From the NCBI RefSeq assembly GCF_007754155.1, contig NZ_CP037423.1:6506567-6570566 (forward strand): a stretch of 64,000 nt of DNA. The letters run 5' to 3'. The notes under the pieces were generated by a model. It was not told the DNA's origin. It saw nothing but the letters and a program-made list of their open reading frames with translations, and did not search any database. The DNA comes from Stieleria neptunia (GTDB lineage Bacteria; Planctomycetota; Planctomycetia; Pirellulales; Pirellulaceae). The position numbers and the translations under genes were made by a program. Position 1 is the stretch's first letter, and each line of letters begins with the position of its first letter. This document shows, in pieces, positions 1,526-7,207 of the stretch.

Positions 1526-4500
1526 ATGATGAGACGAACCACACGACTGAAACCTCGCATCGTCACCACATTGGTGCTGCTCATTGCAGCCGTCACCGCA
1601 GCGTCTGTGCAGGCACGGCGCCCGATCGTCGATCAATCGGTCGTGTTCGCCGAACAGGACGGCTTGGTGGCCGTCGAAGCGGAACACTTTTTCAAACAAA
1701 CCGACGACGACGTTCGTGCGTTTTACTTGACGCATTCCGAATGGACGCCGTCGATCACACCGGACGGCGATCCGTCCCACGTCGCTGGAGCCAGCGGTGG
1801 CGCCTACTTGGAAATTCTGCCCGATACGCGTCGCACCCACGGCGACAAACTGATCCGCGGCACCAATTTTTCACCCCAGCCCGGCGCGATGGCCGTGCTG
1901 CACTACAAGGTCGACATCTCCACACCGGGGACCTACTACGTTTGGGTCCGCGCCCATTCGACCGGATCCGAAGACAACGGTCTGCACGTGGGGATCGATG
2001 GCACTTGGCCGGAAAGCGGCCAGCGATTGCAGTGGTGCCAGGGCAAACAGACCTGGCGATGGGAAAGCAAACAACGCACCGAGAAACAGCACTGCGGAGA
2101 ACCGTACAAGATCTTTTTGGAAATCGACGAACCGGGCGAGCACGTCATTCATTTTTCGATGCGGGAAGACGGTTTCGAATTCGACAAGTTCTTGATGACG
2201 ACCGACCGCGAATTCCAGCGTCCCGCCGACGCCGGCCCTGAACCGCGGCTGAAACATGGAACGCTCCCCAAAACATTCCCGCTGGTTGCGGCAACGAACA
2301 ATGGCGCGGCGTCAACCACCACGGCGACGACAGCCACCAAAACCTCAGCCGACGGTGACGCTGCGTCCTTGCAATTAACCGCCGCCGCATTCGCCGAAGG
2401 CAACAAATCGGGCTACTACCTGGACCAGGGCAAATGGCTGGCGATCAACCCCGAACAACACAAACGCGGATCGACCGCCAAAACGTTTCCGTTCCCCACC
2501 GGGCGCTACAACATCACCCTGAAAACGGTCGGCGAAAACGATGGCCGATCCAGTTATGAGGTGTCGGTCGATGAATCGAAAATCGGCCAGTACACCAATC
2601 CGCTCGCCGATGCGATGTACAAAGAAGGCAAAGCGTTTCACAAGACTTGGAACAACGTTCCGATCACCGAAGGTGCCATGATTGGCGTTTCATCAACGAT
2701 CGGCAGCAAGGACGGGCAAGAGTTCAGCCGGGCCCGATGGTCGGCCGTCGCCTTCACCGCCGCCGATGCTGCGACCGCCAAGTCGATCGCGCCGATCCTG
2801 GCAAAACAGGCCGCGCAGCCGCAACACGGCGCCACTGCCAAATCGAAAACCAGCCCCACCAAACCCTCCAGCGATCAACCGCTGCAACGGCCCCGCGGCG
2901 AAAACGGTGACGCCGGCGTCGACGTCTCCGGTGAATTGAAGCGTTGGCACAAGGTCACGTTGGATCTGAGCGGACCCTATGCCCACGAAAAAGACAACCA
3001 GCCCAATCCGTTCACCGACTATCGGATGACGGTGCGGCTAAAACACTCCGGCGGCACCGAGTACACGGTGCCGGGCTACTTCGCCGCCGATGGCAACGCC
3101 GGAAACACGTCGGCCGAATCCGGCACGGTCTGGCGCGCCCATTTTGCTCCCGATCAAACCGGCCAATGGACCTACACCGTTTCCTTTCATCAAGGCAGCT
3201 TGGCGGCGCTCGATTCCGACGCAGCCTCCAAGCCGCTGGCACCCTTTGATGGGGCCAGTGGATCGTTCACGATCGCCGAGAGCGACAAGACCGGCCGCGA
3301 CCTGCGTGGCCAAGGCCGATTGACGTATGTCGGCAAACACTATCTGCAATTCGCCGGATCGAAAAAGTATTTCCTGAAAGTCGGCGCCGACGCGCCAGAA
3401 ACCCTGCTCGCCTATGCCGACTTTGATAACACGATTGCCGGCAACCCCAGGAAAGCGCCTATCAAAACCTGGACACCACACGTCCAGGACTGGAAACCGG
3501 GCGACCCGACCTGGGGCGACGGCAAGGGCAAGGGCCTGATCGGTGCGGTCAATTACTTGTCCGGCAAAGGCTGCAACGCGTTTTCGTTTCTGACCTACAA
3601 CGCCGGAGGCGATGGCGACAACGTCTGGCCCTTCATCCAACGCGAGGACAAACTGCATTACGATTGCAGCAAGCTGGATCAGTGGGGAACCGTGTTCGAT
3701 CACGGGACCGCCAAAGGCATGTACCTGCACTTCAAATTGCAGGAAACCGAAAACGACGATCACAACAAACACAAGGCGTCCGGCGGCGTTCCGGAAAGTC
3801 TTGACGGCGGCAATCTCGGATCGCAACGCAAACTGTATTGCCGCGAAATGATCGCCCGCTACGGCCACAACCTGGCGCTCAACTGGAACCTGGGCGAAGA
3901 GAACACGCAAACGACCGAGCAGCAACAAGCGATGATCAACTATCTCGCCGACTTGGACGCCTACGGTCACAACATCGTCGTGCACACCTTTCCGTCCCAA
4001 CAGGACCAGGTCTATCGGCCGCTGCTGGGCGAGCGATCAAAACTCACCGGTGTCTCCCTGCAAAACAGCAGCCTGGAAACCACGCACGCTCAAACGGCCA
4101 AATGGGTCTCCGAATCCGCCAAGGCGGGCAAACCCTGGATCGTCGCGTTCGACGAATCCGGCAGTGCCGCCCACGCCCAGTGCCCCGATCTGGGCTACAA
4201 CGGCTTTGACGGACACGACCGGACGGGCAAGATGGCGTACACCCAGCACAAGGTCCGCAAACAAACGCTATGGGGAACCCTGATGGCCGGCGGTGCGGGT
4301 AACGAGTACTACTTCGGTTACCAGTTCGATGAAAACGATATCGTCTGTGAAGACTGGCGCAGCCGCGACCAGAGTTGGGACTATTGCCGCATCGCGATCG
4401 GGTTCTTTCACGACCATCAAATCCCATTTTGGGAAATGAAGAACGCCGATGAGCTGATCGGGAATCCCGATCGCAAGCCGACGAAGTACTGTTTCGCCAA

Positions 4501-4723
4501 AGCGAACGACACCTACCTGGTGTACCTTTGCGAGGGCGGATCCTCGTCGCTCGATCTATCCGGTGCCGCGGGAACCTATGACGTCCGCTGGTTCAACCCG
4601 CGTGACGGCGGACCGTTGCAATCGGGCGGCACGACAAGCGTTTCCGGCGGCGGCACGGTGTCACTAGGCAAAGCACCGTCGGATCCCGATCAAGATTGGT
4701 TGGTCGTGTTAAAAAAAAAGTAG
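1526..4723 (+). CDS. Secreted DUF5060/collagen-binding-like glycosidase-type protein
   Basis: A 1065-residue exported protein. It has an N-terminal signal peptide (hydrophobic stretch about residues 13-28, ending SVQARR). Next comes a carbohydrate-binding-like module similar to the GH115 C-terminal domain (VEAEHFF...GGAYLEI...FEFDKFLMT). A DUF5060 immunoglobulin-like domain starts near residue 475 ([13 protein letters not shown]). A TIM-barrel-like region follows ([16 protein letters not shown]), and the end resembles the putative collagen-binding domain Collagen_bind_2 (YLVYLCEGG...DWLVVL). This build is common in planctomycetes and is thought to act on polysaccharides. The gene ends in A AAA AAG followed directly by TAG; a -1 shift there enters the Kelch frame. 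The exact glycan is unknown. Confidence 0.85.
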
Positions 4724-5703
4724 TCGCTGACTCAGGACAGACTGACTCAGGACAGACTGACTCGGGCCGTCGATGGCAGTGGGAAACCATCGATGCGATC
4801 GGCAGCCCGACGGCCCGCCATGAAGCCAGTTTGGTGGCTTACCAGAACAAGCTGTATCTGATCGGCGGCCGTCGCGTGAACCCGGTCGACGTCTACGACC
4901 CCGCGACGAACACGTGGACGGCAAAGTCAAAGACGCCGCTGGAATTGCATCATTTTCAAGCTGTCGTGGTGGGTGACGCGATCTATCTGATGGGCGCGAT
5001 GACGGGGCCGTACCCTCATGAAACGCCGCTCGAAAAGATCGTCGTCTACTATCCCGATGAAGACCGTTTCGATTTCGTGCACAGTATTCCGGAGAGTCGT
5101 CGCCGTGGCGGTGCCGGAGCGGTCTACCATGACGGCATGATCTATCTGGTCGGCGGCATCACCAACGGCCACATCGACGGTTTCCAACCTTGGCTGGATC
5201 GATACGATCCGGTGACCGGCGATTGGGACGTGCTGGCCGATGCGCCCCATGCGCGGGATCACTTTCAGGCAGTTGTTTCAGCCAACCGTCTGTATTCGAT
5301 CGCCGGCCGAACGACGTCAAAAGCGACCAACGAGGTGTTTAGCCGTGTCGTGCCGCCGGTCGATGTGTACGATTTTGGAAGCGCCCGTTGGCTTCCCGAA
5401 TCTGAAAGCCCAATCCTTCCCACGCCGCGGGCAGGAAACATGGCCACCGTTTGGCGAAACGAAGTGATCGTCGGCGGCGGTGAGACGACTCAAAAGACCG
5501 CCCACAACGACGTCGAAGCCTTTGACACGGTGTCGGGTACTTGGCGGTCATGGCCCAAGCTTAATCGCGGACGTCACGGTTCGGGATTCGCGATCATGGG
5601 CGAGTACGTTTACACGGCGTCTGGATCGGGCAACCGCGGCGGGTCCCCGGAGTTGACGACGATTGAACGACTCAAATTGCCGGTCGTAAAATACCAACAG
5701 TGA
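4696..5703 (+). CDS. Kelch-repeat beta-propeller, probably made by frameshift
   Basis: The frame encodes about six Kelch-type blades with recurring LYLIGG, YLMGA, IYLVGG and YSIAGR strands and NTWTAKS-type turns, similar to galactose-oxidase/Kelch propellers. It overlaps the preceding gene by 28 bases. The only initiation codon at its 5' end is a TTG inside the upstream gene, with no ribosome binding site and no signal peptide, although neighbours and most such propellers are exported. No ATG or GTG start lies before the first blade. The simplest reading is that it is the C-terminal domain of the upstream DUF5060 protein, reached by a -1 frameshift. A broken fusion gene or a sequencing error would look the same. 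Confidence 0.75.
4711..4766 (+). promoter_or_regulatory. Putative -1 frameshift site and linker repeat
   Basis: Nine consecutive A residues (4711-4719) are followed by G and then by the stop codon TAG of the upstream gene. In the upstream frame the codons are TTA AAA AAA AAG TAG, so the classical bacterial heptamer A-AAA-AAG (as in dnaX) sits directly before the stop. A -1 slip, or one extra A from transcriptional slippage, joins the Kelch frame. Two copies of GACTCAGGACAGACT plus a partial third (4729-4766) follow and encode a short DSGQT-type linker. A homopolymer sequencing error is the main alternative. Confidence 0.55.
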
Positions 5704-5891: not shown

Positions 5892-5969
5892 TTTTAGCGG
5901 CAGGGCGCGAGCGATCCGGCTTGCGCATCTTTGCCAACACACCGGAGGGCTCGCGCCCTGCCGCTAAAA
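5892..5969. repeat. Large inverted repeat (REP-like)
   Basis: Two perfectly complementary 21-base arms lie at 5892-5912 and 5949-5969; the left arm starts TTTTAGCGGCAGGGCG. They are separated by a 36-base spacer. A weaker relative occurs at 30077-30239. The unit is intergenic and would fold into a stable cruciform or RNA hairpin upstream of the GH62 gene. Confidence 0.75.
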
Positions 5970-6091: not shown

Positions 6092-7207
6092 ATGAAACGA
6101 CGTCTCCTTTGTAACGCGTTGCGGTCCGTCGCCGTGGCTTGTGTCGCGGTGCTGCTGTGTGTCACCACTTTCCCGTTGGGCTTGGTCGCGAGCGGCCAGG
6201 AAACAGCGAAAGCGGCGTCGCGCCCCGTGACGGATCGCAGCGCCGATGACCCGCTGGTTTCGGGCATCTTTCGTTGGCGCGTCGGGGCGCCGATCTTGGG
6301 GGTGGACGCAGAGCGTTTACCGGCCTCTTCCGAGCATCCTTGGTTGGCCGTGAAAGATCCCAGCATCGTGCGCTATGCCGACCGTTGGCATTTGTTTTGC
6401 ACGTTGCGAAAACGCAAAACCGGCGATGGCCGGATTCGAATCGGGTACCTTTCCTTTGCCGACTGGGCCGATGCCAAGGACGCCGACTGGAGTGTGTTGG
6501 ACCTGACGATGGGCTACCACGGTGCGCCACAGATTTTCTATTTCCAGCCGCATCGCAAGTGGTACCTGATCTATCAGGCCAGCGATGAAACCCGTGGTTT
6601 GAAGTACGGCCCTTGCTTTTCCACCAACGATTCGATTGACCAGCCCGACCGTTGGACGCGTCCCGAACCGCTGTATGTGGTCAAAGACGGCGCCAAGGCG
6701 GGACTCGATTTTTGGGTCATCTGTGACGACGACAAGGCGCATTTGTTCTTCACGACGCTGAACGGTCAGATGTGGCGTGCCGAAACCTCGCTCGACGATT
6801 TCCCGAATCGCGGCTGGTCGGATCCCCATGTGGTCTTGCAAGCCGACATCTTCGAAGCCAGTCACACGTACGCGATCCGAGGTCGGCACACGTATCTGAC
6901 GGTGGTCGAAGCCCAAGCCGGCCGCAGACGGTATTTCAAAGGCTTCGTCAGTGATCGACTGGACGGAACCTGGACGCCGTTAGCGGCAAGCCGCCAGCAG
7001 CCCTTCGTCTCACCGATCAATGTGGTCAATCAAGACCAATCGTGGGCGACCTCGTACAGCCACGGCGAACTGATTCGCAGCGGTTACGACCAACGTTTGG
7101 AAGTGGATCCTGACGGGATGCAATTGCTGTTTCAAGGAGCCGATGACACGGAATATCAACGCGGCAGTTATGGCGACATCCCCTGGCGACTGGGAATTCT
7201 AAAGTAG
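6092..7207 (+). CDS. Secreted GH62 alpha-L-arabinofuranosidase
   Basis: A 371-residue protein with a signal peptide (residues about 10-35, long hydrophobic core). The mature part matches glycoside hydrolase family 62, a five-bladed propeller that removes arabinose side chains from arabinoxylan. Landmarks are WLAVKDPSIV with the catalytic-base Asp, LDFWVICDDDKAHLFFTTLNGQMWRA, FEASHTY with the likely catalytic acid, and the closing SGYDQRLEVDP...LLFQGADD. The length is close to that of single-domain family members. With the upstream DUF5060 and Kelch proteins it suggests a small hemicellulose-use locus. A degraded copy of its C-terminal coding sequence lies at 5704-5790. Confidence 0.88.
   Translation: MKRRLLCNALRSVAVACVAVLLCVTTFPLGLVASGQETAKAASRPVTDRSADDPLVSGIFRWRVGAPILGVDAERLPASSEHPWLAVKDPSIVRYADRWHLFCTLRKRKTGDGRIRIGYLSFADWADAKDADWSVLDLTMGYHGAPQIFYFQPHRKWYLIYQASDETRGLKYGPCFSTNDSIDQPDRWTRPEPLYVVKDGAKAGLDFWVICDDDKAHLFFTTLNGQMWRAETSLDDFPNRGWSDPHVVLQADIFEASHTYAIRGRHTYLTVVEAQAGRRRYFKGFVSDRLDGTWTPLAASRQQPFVSPINVVNQDQSWATSYSHGELIRSGYDQRLEVDPDGMQLLFQGADDTEYQRGSYGDIPWRLGILK

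Follow-up and report, generated by a model that had tools for sequence, protein, structure and literature searches.

How a Kelch propeller comes to be translated when its reading frame has no evident start of its own is the question raised by a locus in Stieleria neptunia, where a gene for a DUF5060 protein stops directly before the propeller. The locus lies in a stretch of 64,000 nucleotides from contig NZ_CP037423.1 that was analysed as a whole and is called the window here. A sequence-only reading had proposed that a dnaX-type slippery heptamer at the end of the DUF5060 gene lets ribosomes shift by −1 into the Kelch frame, giving a secreted protein of 1065 residues and a second version of about 1400 with an added propeller. 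Comparison with relatives makes it very probable that a DUF5060-Kelch fusion is made via a run of nine A's at this junction, and it shifts the preferred explanation of the slip from the ribosome toward RNA polymerase. The features on which the argument turns are as follows.

1526..4723, + strand: DUF5060 gene, 1065 aa, with hydrophobic leader, GH115_C-like module, DUF5060 and Collagen_bind_2 (open frame, Pfam, leader hydrophobicity 2.82)
4696..4698, + strand: TTG, the sole ATG/GTG/TTG that the Kelch frame has before its core; both relatives have CTG
4711..4720, + strand: predicted slippage site, nine A's then G, with in-frame A_AAA_AAA and A_AAA_AAG; identical in TBK1r (L086) and S. sedimenti (L087)
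4721..4723, + strand: zero-frame stop TAG, adjoining the A run (sequence)
4720..5703, + strand: −1 frame extension, coordinates including the stop, with a linker and Kelch propeller that lengthen the 1065 aa by 327 (open frame, Pfam, dN/dS 0.096-0.172)
4732..4779, + strand: DSGQT-type linker containing a short tandem repeat (sequence); 18 bases longer in both relatives
4780..5691, + strand: Kelch core, 304 codons compared (AlphaFold, PDB Kelch matches), with near-invariant W, P, R, H, E and A before TTG 4831 and GTG 4834
6092..7207, + strand: next gene, GH62-like with its own leader (open frame, Pfam); leaderless and continuous with the Kelch frame in S. sedimenti

The Junction and Its Run of A's

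The DUF5060 frame ends in GTG TTA AAA AAA AAG TAG, with the nine A's at 4711-4719, the G at 4720, and the stop at 4721-4723, which bears out the earlier observation of A-AAA-AAG directly before the stop. The Kelch frame lies one base back from the DUF5060 frame, opens at 4606, remains open to 5703, and reaches its core with WET at 4780. Translation in the zero frame gives 1065 aa and the −1 product would be 1392 aa, so that the longer form is close to the length of about 1400 first proposed, and both the exported protein and the propeller-bearing form are well supported by comparison. The sequence-only reading had suggested a search for the same junction in relatives, and an identical A9-G-TAG is common to three Stieleria species: that of the window, TBK1r (G012), and S. 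sedimenti ICT_E10.1 (G002). In all three, a run of at least nine A's, as expected for transcriptional slippage, lies at the frame junction, and A_AAA_AAA and A_AAA_AAG, which have the X_XXY_YYZ form used in dnaX-type −1 ribosomal frameshifting, are the only heptamers of this form in frame within the last 39 codons.

The letters alone are no rarer than chance would have them. Shuffling of the window gives an expectation of 0.64 for A9, with at least one in 38 of 100 shuffles, and AAAAAAG is found four times against 6.3 expected. Over the whole genome (10.98 Mb in one piece), 22 distinct runs of at least nine A's were counted on both strands from 26 overlapping matches, as against about 110 when the window shuffle is scaled up. 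What stands above chance is where the run lies: in three species it marks the junction to a frame under selection. Conservation of A9 was considered as stand-alone proof and dropped: its sharing among close junction species is weak evidence by itself because A9 is likewise present in topA of those species. Across 14 genomes of the genus, topA has A9 in four (G000, G002, G005, and G012), A8 in two, and six A's or fewer in eight, which means that its A9 drifts. As for run length beyond the drift of close species, the comparison offers the three close junction species, with topA A9 in the same ones, and one further genus member, G005, in which the Kelch part has been lost save for a 23-residue match and the A run is broken and one base shorter; this joint loss is a single case, and the junction is carried by three species only.

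A Selected Frame with No Shared Start

Over the 304 compared codons of the Kelch core there is no stop codon, and pairwise dN/dS is 0.096 between the window and TBK1r, 0.101 between the window and S. sedimenti, and 0.172 between TBK1r and S. sedimenti. The differences fall at third positions in 57 of 83, 62 of 89, and 35 of 56 cases, respectively. The Kelch frame is under purifying selection, and the frame that slippage would reach is thus both conserved and selected; the DUF5060 part has pairwise values of 0.105-0.116 in the junction species. The DSGQT linker noticed in the first reading is present, and its 18-base difference in length between the window and both relatives means that the frame relation between Kelch and DUF5060 is kept. 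These results weigh on the explanation that the nine A's are a sequencing error for ten, so that the locus is really one continuous gene, or that a fixed frameshift has left a dead Kelch remnant. Homopolymers are prone to such errors and in-frame DUF5060-Kelch fusions are known in other lineages, but A9 occurs in three separate assemblies, the one from S. sedimenti being described as Illumina MiSeq (PMC9692418), the Kelch dN/dS near 0.1 and the absence of stops do not suit a decayed gene, and none of the 120 DUF5060 relatives listed, out of 6322, is a version of about 1400 aa from the Stieleria clade. Error or decay is thereby rendered highly improbable.

No ATG, GTG, or TTG upstream of the Kelch core is common to the three junction species, and the other two species have none there at all. 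An NTG codon does occupy the 4696 position in each of them because it is fixed by the Asp-Trp codons (GAY TGG) of the DUF5060 frame. The next Kelch-frame starts after 4696, TTG 4831 and GTG 4834, lie inside the core and 3′ of the motif WETxxxxGxPTARHEA, which is identical in the three species and in which W, P, R, H, E, and A reach at least 90% invariance when 46 sequences, clipped ones among them, are aligned. No ribosome-binding sequence was seen before the Kelch frame, which means little since none was seen by eye at four neighboring starts either. A strongly hydrophobic leader is found in 105 of the 111 Kelch relatives having at least 15 residues before the core (among 120 database relatives taken), and none is found in the three junction Kelch frames; DUF5060 has one. 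The earlier claim that the Kelch frame has no start, ribosome site, or signal peptide of its own consequently holds for a shared start and for the leader, while its ribosome-site element is uninformative.

Separate translation of the Kelch part, from TTG 4696 (CTG in the relatives), from another unusual start, or by re-initiation after TAG, would yield a leaderless intracellular propeller. The NTG codon at the same place in all three species could be read in its favor, as could the coupling that Antonov et al. (2013, PMC3711429) describe beside frameshifting in several clusters and the example of G212 (L084), whose Kelch gene behind a DUF5060 gene has its own start and leader. Yet the NTG is imposed by the overlapping codons, no ordinary start is held in common, Kelch relatives are exported, going by their leaders, and the GH62 domain of S. 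sedimenti would stay inside the cell. We regard separate translation as improbable.

The propeller class is supported in both repeats and fold by a Kelch match in Pfam, an AlphaFold model with mean pLDDT 92.7 for 4735-5700, and Foldseek matches to Kelch structures in the PDB. In the model, residues 17-18 form a short strand while the last blade has only three others (286-288, 291-295, and 310-314); this strand order suggests that the N-terminal strand closes the propeller ring. Identity as NanM (N-acetylneuraminate epimerase) was rejected at an NCBIfam score of 31.8 bits against a cut-off of 416. For the DUF5060 protein, a sequence search against solved structures gave no match at E 0.01; the protein bears a leader for export and is probably sugar- or glycan-acting.

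Kelch Relatives and the History of the Fusion

Of 241 genomes belonging to the family, 32 contain a close Kelch at E ≤ 1e-40, and 30 of these loci, all but G190 and G192, were inspected. Three have the A9-TAG junction, three have DUF5060 and Kelch in one frame (G191, G198, and G200), three have Kelch and DUF5060 in one frame in the opposite order (G160, G176, and G183), one has another fusion (G065), and 20 are stand-alone Kelch genes, with leaders judged by eye. The G212 locus, which places a stand-alone Kelch gene about 48% identical to that of the window directly behind a DUF5060 gene, illustrates that adjacency alone does not imply fusion. Relatives in which Kelch has its own start and signal peptide had been named as grounds for abandoning the fusion; they exist, these 20 with G212 among them, but none sits at an A9 junction and the fusion is not refuted by them. 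The Kelch of Stieleria sp. TO1_6 (P0009, G004), whose propeller is 70% identical to that of the window, differs in having its own start and leader and in lying elsewhere in the genome, not behind DUF5060. The proteins of Allorhodopirellula heiligendammensis (P0163, 1368 aa) and Neorhodopirellula lusitana (P0175, 1397 aa) have the same domains as the window in the same order, but in one continuous frame and with a Kelch about 48% identical that belongs to another tree branch.

A Kelch tree of 48 rows, in which 17 of 42 inner branches are well supported, has C-terminal DUF5060 fusions at three positions other than the junction clade, and N-terminal fusions at two or more. A single origin of all DUF5060-Kelch fusions was considered and is not supported, given this scatter of the C-terminal ones. 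Kelch-DUF5060 in one frame also occurs beyond the family, in G039 and in two loci of Flavobacteriaceae. In these two loci (L089 and L090), the same Kelch family is fused in frame ahead of DUF5060, perhaps by transfer between phyla. Four database Kelch sequences, P0001, P0003, P0006, and P0007, are 80-91% identical and begin inside the core; three of the four branch as sisters of the Stieleria clade. They may be start-less as well, or contig ends may have truncated them, their contigs being 1094-3168 bases long, and they were left out of the junction counts.

RNA Polymerase or Ribosome

Slippage on A runs that gives two C-terminal variants of a protein is already known (PMC1088944, PMC3711429, and PMC5009743). 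The dnaX gene of Thermus thermophilus is described as having nine A's on which RNA polymerase slips, giving two C-terminal forms (PMC1088944). The DUF5060-Kelch junction has the same number of A's and, by prediction, two such forms, but the arrangement is reversed: in Thermus the long form comes from the unslipped message and slipped messages yield truncated products, whereas here the unslipped message would encode the short form. Also comparable are two-ORF dnaX genes with a run of ten A's, for which slippage by RNA polymerase has been proposed (Antonov et al. 2013, PMC3711429; PMC5009743); as in the window, their zero frame stops directly behind the run and the longer product requires slippage. 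They differ in that the run lies within one protein, encoded by a replication gene, and has ten A's, whereas the nine A's here lie between two domains of a protein that is exported.

We propose that RNA polymerase would sometimes add one A or drop two at the nine-A run. Unslipped messages would yield the 1065-aa exported DUF5060 protein, and ten-A messages would be read through the TAG into the Kelch frame to yield the 1392-aa protein. The DUF5060 leader would then export DUF5060 and Kelch on one chain, and the propeller may serve to hold or present the protein on its glycan. Transcriptional slippage is probably the main slipping step, though a ribosomal −1 slip may contribute alongside it.

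In the alternative that follows the original proposal, programmed −1 ribosomal frameshifting, the tRNA-Lys on the slippery heptamer would slip back one base before the stop. The same fusion product would result, and the peptide at the joint would read LKKKVV whether the ribosome shifts by −1 or the message has ten A's. Both heptamers stand in frame in all three species with the stop directly behind them, A_AAA_AAG and the −1 direction are those of E. coli dnaX (PMC3711429), and some shifts are reported to function without stimulators (PMC5009743). The comparison with E. coli has its limits, since its shift shortens the protein and its stimulators were not found at DUF5060-Kelch.

In E. coli dnaX, these stimulators are an upstream Shine-Dalgarno sequence and a downstream stem. 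At the usual distances from the window site, no Shine-Dalgarno-like element was found upstream by eye, and no close stem appeared downstream in folds of 40, 60, 100, and 150 bases. A hairpin about 40-60 bases downstream is kept in the three junction species at differing distances. It was considered as a stimulator and rejected: the z score of the 100-base fold is −3.3 in the window but only −1.3 and −1.6 in the relatives, and the hairpin is far off and varies in its distance. At least three tRNA-Lys(CUU) genes stand beside at least two for UUU (ARAGORN on fetched regions, 150 of 282 candidates scored), which counts against ribosomal slippage, and dnaX genes of the order have A_AAA_AAG in frame in only 15 of 44 cases while keeping a run of nine or ten. 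A ribosomal shift is possible on its in-frame heptamers, but it takes second place and we consider it unlikely to be the main event; slippage by RNA polymerase appears the better mechanism because no stimulator stands at the usual distance and because the dnaX runs are of nine to ten A's.

dnaX and ThuA-DUF7133 as Comparisons

The dnaX gene of the window genome (TIGR02397 match; L226, G000:C1:1495136) carries a run of ten A's in CCG CAA AAA AAA AAG CTA GCG GCT GAT. Among 60 related genomes, 56 have a dnaX over the cut-off, and DNA was taken for 51, the window genome included (G036, G038, G043, G055, and G057 were left out). In this Pirellulales set (L260-L309 and the window genome's own), 44 of 51 genes have one run, A10 in 26 and A9 in 18, at residues 398-455; the window genome and 43 of the 50 fetched relatives thus have A9-A10 at one place. 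The remaining seven have no run above six A's, and A7 or A8 is the longest run in none of the 51. Behind the run, the −1 frame is closed by a stop within 0-10 codons and the +1 frame within 1-13, or 28 in one case. An A_AAA_AAR heptamer of some kind stands in frame in 44 of 44 because any A9 must give one, so dnaX does not exclude ribosomes. The run is likely a tau/gamma slippage site in Pirellulales; the pattern resembles that of Thermus and suggests that the length of the run is the decisive feature, and a lineage-wide length of nine to ten A's is a pointer to RNA polymerase.

A further candidate is a 973-residue protein with ThuA and DUF7133/GSDH domains, whose gene has A10 at the border of its halves (L241/L310, G000:C1:8496925; further loci L311-L315, L322, and L324-L328). 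The run is present in seven of 14 genus genomes, and the other seven are without any run of at least eight A's. The frame is unbroken in five, while in TBK1r and the more distant G011 the second half lies in the −1 frame. The zero frame meets a stop within 18 codons in TBK1r and within 6 in G011, and their second halves share 98% and 78% identity, respectively, with that of the window genome. In these two genomes the layout matches that of DUF5060-Kelch, and ThuA-DUF7133 is a second exported-type gene with an A10 at a domain border. With dnaX and DUF5060-Kelch, it brings up the reading that runs of nine to ten A's at domain borders are a general dosage device in Stieleria that can be set either way. 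The shared layout lifts this reading from rather doubtful to a tentative standing somewhat short of even.

The GH62 Gene Downstream

In S. sedimenti (L087:5849-7828), the Kelch frame runs on into GH62, and the −1 product would be 1735 aa; the joint is seen in one Illumina contig. Its GH62 is without the part corresponding to the leader of the window's GH62-like gene and has dN/dS of 0.082-0.088 against three relatives. If slippage is confirmed, it would be the sole visible export route for this domain. In the window, a long inverted repeat, whose arms of roughly 21 bases are TTTTAGCGGCAGGGCGCGAGC and the complement of that sequence, was seen by eye at 5892-5969, past the Kelch stop and ahead of the GH62 gene.

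Implications for Stieleria and the Planctomycetes

What appears to be new is such slippage on an exported, probably glycan-acting planctomycete protein that would gain a propeller by it, together with an order-wide A9-A10 run in dnaX. A search of mostly open-access literature found nothing on frameshift-made carbohydrate-active fusions and, on planctomycete transcriptional slippage, nothing in the text it covered other than the genome count given in PMC3711429 and a paper on soil viruses that contains the words. Gene callers clip the Kelch part to an internal start, as in the nearest database entry, P0001, of 305 aa, so whole exported planctomycete domains may be hidden. If confirmed, slippage would set the propeller-bearing share of an exported protein. 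Were the general device also true, one gene would give short and long forms, exported glycan-acting proteins included. The phylum would gain a testable recoding system that comes with its own yardstick in dnaX.
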